Positions 19,212 through 23,551 of a stretch of DNA of 64,000 bases are shown piece after piece (the first letter of the stretch is position 1; the number at the start of each line of letters is the position of its first letter). Origin of the DNA: Methylocystis echinoides (GTDB taxonomy: Bacteria > Pseudomonadota > Alphaproteobacteria > Rhizobiales > Beijerinckiaceae). The notes under the pieces are model-generated. The model searched no databases and had not been told where the DNA came from. It saw nothing but the letters and a program-made list of their open reading frames with translations. Where the stretch lies: contig NZ_BSEC01000001.1 in assembly GCF_027923385.1 (NCBI RefSeq), forward strand, positions 310,001 to 374,000, read 5' to 3'. A program made the position numbers and the translations under genes.

Positions 19212-19249
19212 CGGAAAGCGGCCGGCGCGGGCGCGTCATCCTGCTTGTT

Positions 19250-19278
19250 TTGACAATCGCTTTGTAATGGTCAAGACT
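19250..19278 (+). promoter_or_regulatory. possible sigma-70 promoter before the caspase-like gene
   Basis: A perfect TTGACA (19250-19255) and, 17 bp later, AAGACT (19273-19278), a 3/6 match to TATAAT. The gene starts 30 bp further at 19308. The intergenic DNA is richer in A/T than its surroundings. Confidence 0.35.
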
Positions 19279-19307
19279 ACGCTTCCACCGTCAGGGCGGC
19301 GTTTTCC

Positions 19308-20648
19308 ATGTCCTTTCTGTTTGGCCATCCGATCAGGGGTAAGGCCAGTAGCGAGATCAAGACCGTCGAAGAGACCGCGCGGGTCGGAGAAAAACCGGAC
19401 GGCGAAAGCAAACCCCCGAAAATTGATCTCCTGATTTTCACGGAGCCGGGGGAGACATTCCATGCGAAAGAAGCCCAGAGCCTTCTGAAGGAAGGCGCCA
19501 ATGGCGATCTCGTCTCAAAACATCTTGTGGTTGAGGACGCCGAGTTGGCGTCCACCATTCGCAAGCTGAGAAAAACGGGCGAGATCCACGAGGGGACTCA
19601 AATCGTCTTCCTCATGCATGGCTCCATGGACAATGACGACACGAGGGGCGGCATTGGTAAAACCCACGTCATGAGCCGCGCCGTCGACACCCTCGAGGTC
19701 ATGAGGGCGATCCGCGAGCCGCTGGAAGAGGGCGGGAAGGCGTGTTCGGCGACGATTTACATTGCCTCCTGTTTCGCCGGCGGCAAGGCGATGCGCCGCA
19801 AGGTGCAGGAACTGCACGACAGTCAGGGGGCGGGGGCCTGCTTTCTGTTGGCGAACGGCAAGGAAGTGTTGGACGACTCGCAAGCCGCGCCGCTCCGCGC
19901 AATGTGCGAGCAGTTTATTGAGGCGAAGCGCGCCGGGGGTGACCCCCCCACCCCCCACCACATCTTTTGGCGGATGGCGAGCAACCGCGGCGACTGCCTG
20001 ACGATGATCCGGCCGAACCGCATGGTGATCGCTCACGGCCCCAGGACAGAAGACGAGTTTGGAATGGAGGGACTGGGAGGGGCCATCGATGATGCCATGG
20101 TCATTATCCCAGAGAAAGGGGCGCCTTTCGACCCGGAGAGCTGGAAGTTGGGGAATGAAAAGCAAAATGCGAATATCCGGAAACCAAAGATTGTCGCGGA
20201 CAGCGCCAGCATCGAGGAACTGAAACAGGCGTGGGAGGAAGTGGAACCCGACCAGAAATGGGCCAGGAGCCAATGGGAGAGAGTTCTGAACCGAAAGGCC
20301 CTGCGCGCCAGCAAGCAGGACGTCGAGGAGGCCTTGGCTGCTCGCCCTGATTTGATGAAACAGATTTCGAAAGAAGGGTGGAACGACAGCCATCGCCGGA
20401 TATTGTGGCTTGTAAACTATGCTCTCCAAGATGAAGACCACCAACGTAGCGGCGAAAAAGCCCAATATCTGTATAGTCTCATTTCCGGGAAAAAGGACCG
20501 CTTCGACGGGCTGAACGACAACGACCGCCTGGAAATCATCAAGGAAGCGGTGGGAGTACCATTCTACAACGCCCTGTTGCAAGCCGGGTTTCTTGTCAAA
20601 TCCGAGCGTGAAGGGGTCTCGGAAGAGAGCAGGATACGGCATCTCTGA
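19308..20648 (+). CDS. predicted caspase-like (clan CD) protease with helical repeat tail
   Basis: A 446-residue protein, not recognised as a named family. Residues 38-245 read as a caspase-like alpha/beta fold. One hydrophobic strand ends in a His-Gly pair (TQIVFLMHGSMD, His104) and the next core strand ends in Ser-Cys (ATIYIASCFAGG, Cys155). That is the His/Cys dyad pattern of clan CD peptidases such as metacaspases. A Lys/Glu-rich helical region follows (residues ~300-446), including GWNDSHRRILWLVNYAL and SGEKAQYLYSLI, which recurs in the next reading frame. Only one TGA (20646-20648) separates it from an in-frame continuation to 21434. There is no signal peptide or membrane helix. Ribosome-binding site weak. 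Base composition is visibly lower in GC than flanking genes. It may be an effector or stress protease; function unknown. Confidence 0.6.
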   Translation: MSFLFGHPIRGKASSEIKTVEETARVGEKPDGESKPPKIDLLIFTEPGETFHAKEAQSLLKEGANGDLVSKHLVVEDAELASTIRKLRKTGEIHEGTQIVFLMHGSMDNDDTRGGIGKTHVMSRAVDTLEVMRAIREPLEEGGKACSATIYIASCFAGGKAMRRKVQELHDSQGAGACFLLANGKEVLDDSQAAPLRAMCEQFIEAKRAGGDPPTPHHIFWRMASNRGDCLTMIRPNRMVIAHGPRTEDEFGMEGLGGAIDDAMVIIPEKGAPFDPESWKLGNEKQNANIRKPKIVADSASIEELKQAWEEVEPDQKWARSQWERVLNRKALRASKQDVEEALAARPDLMKQISKEGWNDSHRRILWLVNYALQDEDHQRSGEKAQYLYSLISGKKDRFDGLNDNDRLEIIKEAVGVPFYNALLQAGFLVKSEREGVSEESRIRHL

Positions 20649-20681
20649 CTCGCGCTCGCGGAAGTCGGCGAGCTGAACTAT

Positions 20682-21434
20682 ATGACGGACGTTCTTGAGA
20701 GCCACCCCCGATGGCAGGCGCAGGCTGCCGCCGACGGTTGGAATGAGTCGCACCAGCTCGTCACAGAAATGTTGGCGGCTGCTTCAAAGGATGTCGACGT
20801 CTCAAGGGGAAAGGCCAAAGCCGCCTATCTCCTCGACAGGCTGAAACCAGTCGATTTCATTCGGGATAAACTGCAACCCTATGCGCTTCGCACAGCCGAC
20901 TCGCTCTCCGTTGAAGACATGGAATCGCTGCTGAAAGCATTGCCGCCGCCGGAAGACGACCTTGAAGCAGCTAAAAATAAATTTGATTATCAGCCGACCG
21001 ACGCTTTTGTTTTTCTCGAGAACATGCTCCGCGCCATCGACAGTGATTGGAACGCCGTACGGGCTCAGGACAAGCTCCAGTGTATCGTCAGGTTTTTGGA
21101 GTCTCAGTTCGGGCTGTGGGTGAAGCGTGCTCAGGCAGGAGAGTTAAAATATACGCTCATGAATATTCCAGGGTTCCGGGTCGAGTTCAACGAGAAGCAT
21201 TGGAACGACGCCTGCCTTCTGACGCTGCAGATGATGCGTTACGCCGCCATGGATCCTTCGGTCAGTGACCGAGATAAAAAACTCGAGATACTTTTTGATT
21301 TGCTGTCCGAGAAAAAGGCCGCCTTTCACGCCTCGCCTGATCGCGACGTCCTGATGAAGGTCGCGGCGGAAGACAAAGGCGTGTTCGACTATCTCGACGA
21401 GCGAGGGTTTTTCAGTCCGCGCGCCGAGGGCTGA
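20682..21434 (+). CDS. helical-repeat protein, in-frame continuation of the caspase-like gene
   Basis: 250 residues from the ATG at 20682, in the same frame as the preceding gene and 33 bp after its stop. The frame is also open from the stop itself (LALAEVGELNY). It contains three degenerate copies of a helical module already seen once before the stop. The copies begin near GWNESHQLVTEMLAAA, TDAFVFLENMLRAI and HWNDACLLTLQMMRYAA, and each is followed ~20 residues later by a second helix (KAKAAYLLDRL, QDKLQCIVRFLE, RDKKLEILFDLL). No catalytic motif is seen. It has no good ribosome-binding site. It is most likely the C-terminal part of one original 708-residue protein cut by a nonsense codon or joined by readthrough. 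Confidence 0.55.
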   Translation: MTDVLESHPRWQAQAAADGWNESHQLVTEMLAAASKDVDVSRGKAKAAYLLDRLKPVDFIRDKLQPYALRTADSLSVEDMESLLKALPPPEDDLEAAKNKFDYQPTDAFVFLENMLRAIDSDWNAVRAQDKLQCIVRFLESQFGLWVKRAQAGELKYTLMNIPGFRVEFNEKHWNDACLLTLQMMRYAAMDPSVSDRDKKLEILFDLLSEKKAAFHASPDRDVLMKVAAEDKGVFDYLDERGFFSPRAEG

Positions 21435-21568
21435 GTTTCAGGTGAAAGACGCCGGCGATCGGAAGGCGACGCTTTGACCTTCCCGGTGACGAAGAGGCGG
21501 CGGCGTAGCTGGCTACTTTCCTTTTTGCCTGGATTGCGGCAGCATCTTCTCCGTGCGGTCTTGGAACA

Positions 21569-22909
21569 ATGTTCATGGATGACAGAAAGCACGTCGCATG
21601 GCTCTACGATCAGCTTCCGGCGCTGATCGCCGAGGGGGCGCTCACCGACGAGACCGCTGCGCGGCTGCGGGCGCGCTATGGTCCGCTGGAGGAGGGAGCC
21701 GGGCGCCGGCGCGCGATTGTTCTGTTCGGCATCCTCGGCGCCGCGCTGATCGGGGGAGGCGTCATTCTGCTTCTCGCCCATAATTGGGAGGCGCTCGGCC
21801 GTCTCGTCCGTGGCTTGCTCGCGCTGGCGCTGCTGTTCATCGCGCAGGGGCTGAGCTTCTGGGTTCTCGCCCGCCGGCCCGCGAGCATGGCCTGGCGCGA
21901 GGGCGCGGGAACGCTGCAGACCATGGCCATCGGCGCCTCGATCGCGCTTGTCTCGCAGACCTATCACACCGGCGGGGCCTTCGAGGATTTTCTCCTCCTC
22001 TGGGCGCTGCTCGCCTTGCCTGTCGCCTATCTCCTGCGCGCGACGCTTCCGGCGATCCTCTATCTCTGCGCCATCGCCTATTGGGCGAGCGCGCAGACTT
22101 TCTTCGCGCGCTTCCTGCCTTTCGTCCCCGACGCCTTCGCCTATTGGGTCCTGCTCGCCCTGGCGCTGCCCTGGTGGGGGCTGGCGCTGAGGGAAAATCG
22201 ACATGGCGCGCGGTCGAGCCTGTTCGGCTGGGCGCTGGTCCTGACCTTGCCCGTCGGCTATGCGCTTTCCCTGCAGCATAGCGCTGAGGTTCTGTGGCCG
22301 CTCTGGTGCTGCGCGCTTGTCGCTGTCCTCTATCTCGCCGGCGAGCGCTGGCAGGCGGACGCCCCGTCCCTGCGCCAGCGGCCGCTGCTGATCGCGGGCG
22401 CGCTCGGCTTCGGCGCGCTGGGTCTGTTCCTGTCCTTCGGGGACGCCTGGCGCTTTCAGGCGTTCCAGGCCTTGCTGCGCGGCGAGCGGGAGCTTTTTCT
22501 CGCCCATCCGGCGGAATTCGCCATCGGACTCCTCTGGGTCGTCGCGGCGCTTGCTCTGTGGGCCGACGCGCTTCGGCGCGGCGTCGCGAACGCAGCGCTT
22601 GTCGGCGCCCTGCCAGTGGTGGCCCTGGCCGGATATGCGATCGGCGATCATGCGCCGGGCGGGGCGGCGGCGCTGTTCAATCTCTATCTGCTGATCGTCG
22701 GCGTCGGCGTGCTGGTCACGGGCTTTCGCACGCAGCGGCTGGGTCTCGTCAACGCCGGCATGGCCGTGCTGTCGGCGCTGATCTTCTGCCGCTTCTTCGA
22801 CTCCGACCTTGGCTTCGTCGCCCGCGGCGTCGCCTTCATCGTGGTCGGCGCGGGTTTCCTCGCCGCCAATCTCGTCCTCTTGCGCAAGAAGGGCGCGGCT
22901 GTCCGATGA
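21569..22909 (+). CDS. DUF2157 polytopic membrane protein
   Basis: A 446-residue inner-membrane protein with roughly 12 hydrophobic segments. The DUF2157 domain is at the N-terminus: WLYDQLPALIAEGALTDETAARLRARYG, a cytosolic helix, then the first membrane hairpin (IVLFGILGAALIGGGVILLLAHNWE). DUF2157 proteins are typically paired with a GDYXXLXY protein, as here: the stop codon overlaps the next ATG (ATGA). The function of the pair is not known. Confidence 0.85.
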   Translation: MFMDDRKHVAWLYDQLPALIAEGALTDETAARLRARYGPLEEGAGRRRAIVLFGILGAALIGGGVILLLAHNWEALGRLVRGLLALALLFIAQGLSFWVLARRPASMAWREGAGTLQTMAIGASIALVSQTYHTGGAFEDFLLLWALLALPVAYLLRATLPAILYLCAIAYWASAQTFFARFLPFVPDAFAYWVLLALALPWWGLALRENRHGARSSLFGWALVLTLPVGYALSLQHSAEVLWPLWCCALVAVLYLAGERWQADAPSLRQRPLLIAGALGFGALGLFLSFGDAWRFQAFQALLRGERELFLAHPAEFAIGLLWVVAALALWADALRRGVANAALVGALPVVALAGYAIGDHAPGGAAALFNLYLLIVGVGVLVTGFRTQRLGLVNAGMAVLSALIFCRFFDSDLGFVARGVAFIVVGAGFLAANLVLLRKKGAAVR

Positions 22910-23442
22910 AGCAGATATGGATCCTCGCCATTTTCGTCGCCGTCGCGCTGATCCAGGTGGCCGTTCCGGCGCACACCATCTGGCGGCAGGAGCGTATCCT
23001 CGCGGCGGGCGCGGCGTTCAAGTTCCGCACGGCTCCCGTTGATCCCAACGACGCCTTCCGCGGCCGCTTCGTCGCCCTCTCCTTTCGCGACGTCTTCCCG
23101 CTGGCGCTCGAGGGCGCGACGCCCGAGCCCGGCAAGCCGGTCTATGTCGCGGTCGCCGAAGACGCCGATGGCTACGCCGTGTTGAGCGAAGCTTTCGCCG
23201 CGCCGCCCGCCGGCAAGCCTTATGTGCGGGCGACATGGGATTACGCGGGCGGCGTGACGCTGCCCTTCGATCGCTTTTATCTGGACGAGGACAAGGCGCC
23301 GGAAGCGGAGAGCGCCTACCGGAAGGAGGCGCGGCAGGACAATTCCTATCTGCTCGTGCGCATTCTGGACGGGGGCTGGGCGATCGAGGATCTTTATGTC
23401 GGGGGCAAGCCGCTGGCGGAGGCGGTCGGCGAGGCGCGGTAG
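22906..23442 (+). CDS. GDYXXLXY-domain membrane-anchored protein
   Basis: A 178-residue protein with one N-terminal membrane segment (WILAIFVAVALIQVAVPAHTIW) and an extracytoplasmic domain. The family motif is in DPNDAFRGRFVALSF, with the usual GDY changed to GRF. Later marks are the conserved FYLDEDKAPEAESAYR and GWAIEDLYVGGKPL. Translation is coupled to the upstream DUF2157 gene by an ATGA overlap, suggesting a two-protein membrane unit. Function unknown. Confidence 0.85.
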   Translation: MKQIWILAIFVAVALIQVAVPAHTIWRQERILAAGAAFKFRTAPVDPNDAFRGRFVALSFRDVFPLALEGATPEPGKPVYVAVAEDADGYAVLSEAFAAPPAGKPYVRATWDYAGGVTLPFDRFYLDEDKAPEAESAYRKEARQDNSYLLVRILDGGWAIEDLYVGGKPLAEAVGEAR

Positions 23443-23475
23443 CGCCGCGGGGCTGCGAAGCGGGCCCAGCGCCGC

Positions 23476-23504
23476 GTCATGGCCGCGCGCGTCGCGGCCA
23501 TGAC
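23476..23504. terminator. strong hairpin between convergent genes
   Basis: Perfect 12-bp stem GTCATGGCCGCG / CGCGGCCATGAC with a CGCGT loop. It lies between the GDYXXLXY gene (ending 23442) and the SH3-protein gene (ending 23552). There is no T-run, so a Rho-assisted or stability role is as likely as true intrinsic termination. Confidence 0.5.
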
Positions 23505-23551
23505 GCCAATAGATCGCGCGACTCCCTGGGCGCCGCGACTTGAACCGCCGC

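Follow-up and report, generated by a model that had tools for sequence, protein, structure and literature searches.

The genome of Methylocystis echinoides carries a family of six diverged genes that encode a domain with an invariant histidine and cysteine, followed by helical repeats of about 110 residues. One of these genes, interrupted by a stop codon, lies in the 64,000-nucleotide stretch of DNA analysed here (the window). This copy is best read, tentatively, as a truncated member of a new orphan family in which a clan-CD-like His/Cys cysteine protease is joined to regulatory helical modules and would serve an immune or stress role. The joining of caspase-type domains to repeats is itself of an already known kind: metacaspases with TPR, WD40 or HEAT_PBS repeats are described in the available text of PMC3501461, and TPR-CHAT is another example. 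What is new here is a family that none of the scanned libraries recognises and whose module is unseen elsewhere in the genomes searched. In the open-access literature, no paper on a caspase-like protein of Methylocystis was found, and among the papers listed, judged by title and the beginning of the abstract, none was relevant on metacaspases in methanotrophs and none treated such a bacterial family combining clan CD with helical repeats.

The window copy consists of the following features.

19250..19255, forward strand: TTGACA, putative −35 box, 58 nt 5′ of the start codon, at a position shared by five of the six members.
19308..20648, forward strand: truncated caspase-like gene of 446 amino acids, closed by an in-frame TGA (from the open reading frame list and translation).
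19308..19412, forward strand: N-terminal tail, residues 1-35 (from the alignment and the domain coordinates; model confidence is low here).
19413..20093, forward strand: putative clan-CD-like protease domain, residues 36-262 (from the alignment, the strand and helix order in weak models, and the comparison with CHAT).
19617..19619, forward strand: His104, putative catalytic histidine (His-Gly), invariant in 6/6 members.
19770..19772, forward strand: Cys155, putative catalytic cysteine (SCxAG), invariant in 6/6 members.
20295..20615, forward strand: helical module 1, a repeat of the WN-x-SH ... GFF type (repeat model).
20646..20648, forward strand: in-frame TGA stop separating modules 1 and 2 (sequence).
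20658..20999 (C1:330658-330999 on the contig), forward strand: helical module 2, which begins just past the stop with the frame unchanged (repeat-model match).
20682..21434, forward strand: second open reading frame of 250 amino acids, the detached C-terminal part with modules 2 and 3 (open reading frame list).
21117..21431, forward strand: helical module 3; the GFF signature stands close to its end, a feature that most paralogues share at their C-terminus (repeat model).

The first-pass annotation had described 19308..21434 as a single gene, which does not hold, as two open reading frames in the same frame are split by the TGA at 20646-20648. The first frame (446 residues) contains both catalytic motifs and one helical module, and the second contains two further modules. 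Because the repeat-model match for module 2 begins at 20658, between the TGA and the ATG of the second open reading frame, and because the reading frame is retained across the stop, the stretch was most likely one continuous gene that has since been interrupted. Moreover, the tail past the TGA runs for 261 codons without another stop, and the event thus looks recent.

There is an even chance that the window copy has become, or is becoming, a pseudogene, in which a nonsense change split a full-length member and left only the five other copies functional. The in-frame TGA, the restart of homology directly after it in an unchanged frame, the tail that still terminates in the GFF signature as in other members, and the absence of such a stop from the other five members all point this way. 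However, the protease domain and module 1 are retained in an open frame, the stop-free tail suggests a recent event, the product of 446 residues could still work, and the stop may be a base-calling error. That the TGA is instead read through, recoded or an assembly error, giving a full-length product of about 708 residues, is very improbable. The preserved frame on either side of the TGA would fit such an explanation, but no sign of recoding was seen, the matched stretches of the five paralogues are stop-free, and the stop in the window is known from one assembly. The stop takes away two of the three modules, which leaves a gene that is probably in decay, or else a shortened one under different regulation. 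The question of a pseudogene concerns this copy alone and is compatible with the reading of the family as a whole. Truncated as it is, the window copy is therefore of interest chiefly as a pointer to five intact paralogues.

These paralogues were found by searching the organism's own genome (5.32 Mb in 10 contigs) with the first open reading frame, which they match with E values of 2.7e-68 to 1.4e-25. Their frames are without stops, and all five lie on the same contig as the window copy, so that the six members occupy five places:

L013:8387-10582 and L013:10919-12541: paralogues 1 and 2, a tandem pair.
L014:8981-11095: paralogue 3.
L015:8509-10521: paralogue 4.
L016:8010-10430, minus strand: paralogue 5, the most diverged.

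The first-pass description of a lone gene is thus right locally, between irr and a DUF2157 gene, but not for the contig. The paralogues are 541-807 amino acids long when counted from chosen starts, which for both L013 copies and those of L014 and L015 were placed downstream of the longest-frame start, before promoters were examined. Pairwise identity across the six members is 24-41% over the 227-residue domain. Over this domain the two genes of the tandem pair share 37% identity, which makes them no closer to each other than to most other members. Ahead of the domain, all six have a tail of 28-35 residues that is poorly conserved. Of all six, the L016 copy is lowest in third-position GC (0.57); it is flanked by ftsH and a phosphoglucomutase-type gene and carries a serine/acidic low-complexity tail at its C-terminus.

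The tail of helical modules that had been proposed behind the domain was confirmed as a repeat of about 110 residues, which is helical in the weak structural model. Its consensus centres on WN-x-SH, followed by K-x-x-YL-x-x-L and finally by L-x-x-x-GFF. The window locus has one repeat ahead of the stop and two past it. Among the paralogues, L015 has three clear copies by the repeat model, the first L013 gene two clear copies and one weaker, the second L013 gene two clear copies, and L014 one clear copy and one weaker; the most diverged member, L016, has weak matches only. When this model, built from 11 module copies, was run against 61 genomes, it gave 13 matches at E ≤ 0.01, all of them at family loci in the window's own genome and none within the L016 copy.

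The putative protease domain is defined mainly by its two candidate catalytic residues. The clan CD motifs that had been read in the window protein are present, VFLMHG with His104 and IYIASCFAGG with Cys155, within residues 36-262 and ahead of the helical modules. The first-pass annotation had also named a lack of conservation of either residue among homologues as grounds for rejecting its proposal; both are invariant in all six members. The alignment of the domain contains 21 invariant columns out of 227, including His104, Gly105, Cys155 and Gly158. In every member, the His-Gly and the Cys each stand behind a hydrophobic stretch, in the clan CD order, and they are separated by 51, 51, 49, 46, 42 and 49 residues, a spacing near that of known clan CD members. 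The cysteine occurs in an SC/AC-x-[SA]-G context, which we take to resemble that of C13.

Two single-sequence AlphaFold2 models, one of the full-length protein and one of the domain, reached mean pLDDT values of 44.5 and 44.3, which is too poor to prove a fold. The full-length model has the order E-H-E-H-E-H-E-H, with the third strand ending at His104 and the fourth at Cys155. The domain model repeats this order, except that one strand ends one residue before the His and the next runs two residues past the Cys. In the caspase fold as given in the available text of PMC4626109, the His lies just after β3 and the Cys just after β4, and this strand-helix order is that of the p20 part. Clan CD is marked by a strictly conserved His and Cys after core strands of a six-stranded sheet. 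In the family, the two residues are conserved in 6/6 members, the strands ahead of them are predicted, and the strand and helix order agrees with such a sheet in models of mean pLDDT 44.5 and 44.3.

The domain is accordingly described here as clan-CD-like, and it is probably, but not certainly, a peptidase. It is unlikely to be part of another α/β enzyme that uses the conserved His and Cys for some different chemistry. That alternative draws on the structural matches of the weak models, which among the matches listed are mostly not caspase-like, and on a sequence link to peptidases that lies below the usual significance thresholds throughout. With Foldseek, neither model gave a match at E ≤ 0.001; among the matches listed, one model had many short-chain dehydrogenases and a MARTX cysteine protease domain at rank 40, and the other a mixture including RAD51, lumazine synthase and dehydrogenases. 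However, the models are too weak for these matches to count, and they were set aside as meaningless. In addition, both residues stand at clan CD positions in the strand order with a spacing near that of the clan, and both are paired in the best profile alignment with CHAT, which argues for a peptidase.

Comparison with known families gave little. None of the six members scored over the cut-off in any Pfam or NCBIfam model, and none matched a PADLOC family. CHAT (PF12770) had no match at E ≤ 5 in the window protein or at E ≤ 1 in the five paralogues, and the Peptidase C14 model (PF00656) matched none of the six. Matches to Ribosomal_L14e and PHROG 3949 were rejected because they fell below cut-off or were weak, covered a single short stretch and did not recur in the paralogues.

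The profile comparison that the first-pass annotation had suggested was run with hhalign, and of the two families tested, CHAT compared better than C14. The alignment of six members against 13 CHAT sequences, taken from 22 CHAT loci fetched after partial and weak ones were left out, scored 26.2 over 135 columns (E 0.0078, probability 5%) with both dyad residues paired. Among column shuffles that preserve the motifs, 5 of 1000 reach this score, and none of those five does so over at least 100 columns. As controls, seven unrelated families of the neighbourhood scored 10.9-19.4 over at most 28 columns. Under another match-column setting, the CHAT score fell to 19.1 over 129 columns (probability 0.7%), no better than the unrelated control DHGD at 19.4. 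Against 30 C14 domains the probability was 0.1%, with alignments that never span both dyad residues, while C14 against CHAT, the positive control, reached 94.4%. The similarity to CHAT is thus weak and setting-dependent, and a similarity to C14 found no support.

Several known systems nevertheless resemble the family in part. TPR-CHAT (Craspase) likewise joins a Cys/His dyad to helical repeats. Its dyad is H585/C627 in the available text of PMC9729208, and the resulting spacing of 42 falls inside the 42-51 of the window family. It differs in that, according to the same text, its TPR repeats are N-terminal, whereas the modules of the window family are C-terminal of the protease and have no TPR match. 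The C14 metacaspases and orthocaspases have the same order of catalytic residues, with a spacing of 50-55 compared to 42-51 here; the C14 figure comes from the 18 of 30 fetched domains in which a motif scan found both residues, as ten lack the dyad and two were missed by the scan. Unlike these enzymes, the window family has no DACR-type motif, and its repeat is a different, unnamed one. Separase (C50) also joins a caspase-type domain to a helical array, as outlined in the available text of PMC4626109, but the window family has no Pfam match to it, nor to legumain (C13).

The ten fetched C14 domains that lack both catalytic residues resemble pseudo-orthocaspases as portrayed in the available text of PMC6426788. 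The genome's own and only Pfam C14 domain, at L086:1501-2157 (C1:1987969-1988625), has Tyr and Ala at the positions of the catalytic His and Cys. Its gene, the sole one found in the C14 search of this genome, is unrelated to the window family.

The search for homologues that had been proposed succeeded inside the window's genome, with the five paralogues, and found none beyond it in the collections searched. The family was not found in 36 of 36 congeners, in 24 other genomes of the order, or in partly overlapping samples of 396, 384 and 397 other genomes at the order, class and phylum levels; the order-level search, made with a full-length profile, scored few candidates per genome and reported two of the six copies in its own genome. 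Plasmids and phages, searched by tblastn with the window protein and two paralogues, contained no relative. Pattern scans of viral contigs and genome contigs found nothing outside the window's own genome, though such scans require short, near-exact stretches and could miss distant or unsampled relatives.

The six copies have a third-position GC of 0.57-0.72, compared to 0.83-0.91 in five neighbouring genes of the window. This composition, the absence from 36 of 36 congeners and the near-empty state of homologous sites point to acquisition of the family from outside. Since third-position GC varies among the six copies, they may also have been acquired at different times. The homologous site of the window copy is the gap between irr and an SH3-domain gene. 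In 11 of 29 congener loci, this gene lies 53-212 bases past irr (between aligned ends); in two more the distance is about 1.5 kb, and in the other 16 the gene is absent from the 1.5 kb fetched. In the window, the gap (19212-23551) is occupied by the protease gene and a DUF2157/GDYXXLXY gene pair, and in one congener (L061) by what reads by eye as a putative histidine-kinase/response-regulator pair. Within the genus, the gap is therefore variable: 11 of 29 congener loci are nearly empty there, and the rest have longer or other content.

The DUF2157 gene (21569-22909) has a host-like third-position GC of 0.843, and is for this reason probably a separate accessory insertion. Of 38 other congeners, just three have a match to it, and the 9-13 kb fetched around each of these contains no irr. 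Integration beside a tRNA was considered for the family and rejected, as the window contains no tRNA and the four paralogue regions contain none except a tRNA-Trp at L016:1403-1478, about 6.5 kb off. No transposase was noticed when the open reading frame lists were inspected by eye.

The copies look like independent expression units, because the flanking genes that were scanned share no family between loci. The neighbours are irr and DUF2157 at the window locus; EngA, a poly-gamma-glutamate hydrolase and rubrerythrin; a prolyl oligopeptidase; polynucleotide phosphorylase and a PAS protein; and FtsH and a phosphoglucomutase-type protein. The tandem pair has the poly-gamma-glutamate hydrolase gene (PF05908) at its 5′ end, at L013:7732-8598 and on the other strand. 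In five of the six members, TTGACA occurs 56-64 nt upstream of the start codon, and the sixth has TTGACC at −102; the expected number of TTGACA in such upstream regions is 0.007 per 110 nt. With up to three mismatches allowed, a promoter pattern derived from one copy matched nowhere in the window, the window copy included, and therefore the TTGACA and its distance are claimed here and a shared −10 is not.

The family proteins would be large and probably cytosolic, with a short N-terminal tail, a protease domain and up to three clear modules of about 110 residues. In the favoured mechanism, modelled on the gating of TPR-CHAT as far as it is set out in the available text of PMC9729208, the helical modules would form a sensing or regulatory arm that keeps the protease inactive. 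Binding of a ligand to the modules, perhaps a phage or stress product, would release the protease, which would then cut a cellular protein. A bolder version is possible but doubtful: a new clan CD family, independent of CHAT and C14 and fused to a helical sensor module of a new type, might have been acquired and have diversified to six members in this one species. Each would act on its own in immunity or cell death, and the modules would detect different products of invaders.

It is quite unlikely that the proteins are secreted or injected effectors directed against protists or other bacteria. The copies are scattered, diverged and of foreign composition, with low third-position GC, and such a role would also suit the poorly conserved N-terminal tail in 6/6 members and the C-terminal tail of the L016 copy. 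However, no signal sequence was recognised by eye, and the genome's sole relative of HrcV scores 545 bits, under the HrcV cut-off of 692. The same protein passes the FlhA cut-off (855 compared to 772), and its gene adjoins FliR-, FlgL-, FlgK- and FlgE-type genes. Proteins comparable to it occur in 10 of 36 congeners. As the single HrcV relative is a flagellar FlhA, a type III effector found no support: the genome has no injectisome by this marker, in a search in which no positive control passed the cut-off (0 of 61 genomes, 0 of 14 control genomes).

Because the sole C14 domain of the genome lacks the catalytic residues and no CHAT match was found in it, active enzymes of the caspase type in this organism could come from the window family. 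Should the five intact members be proteases, they would add to clan CD a family that was missed by the curated libraries consulted and that has a sensor-like module. With six diverged copies here and none in any of the 36 congeners searched, the family would form a natural series of variants for the study of sensing by the modules and of the substrates of bacterial caspase-like enzymes.
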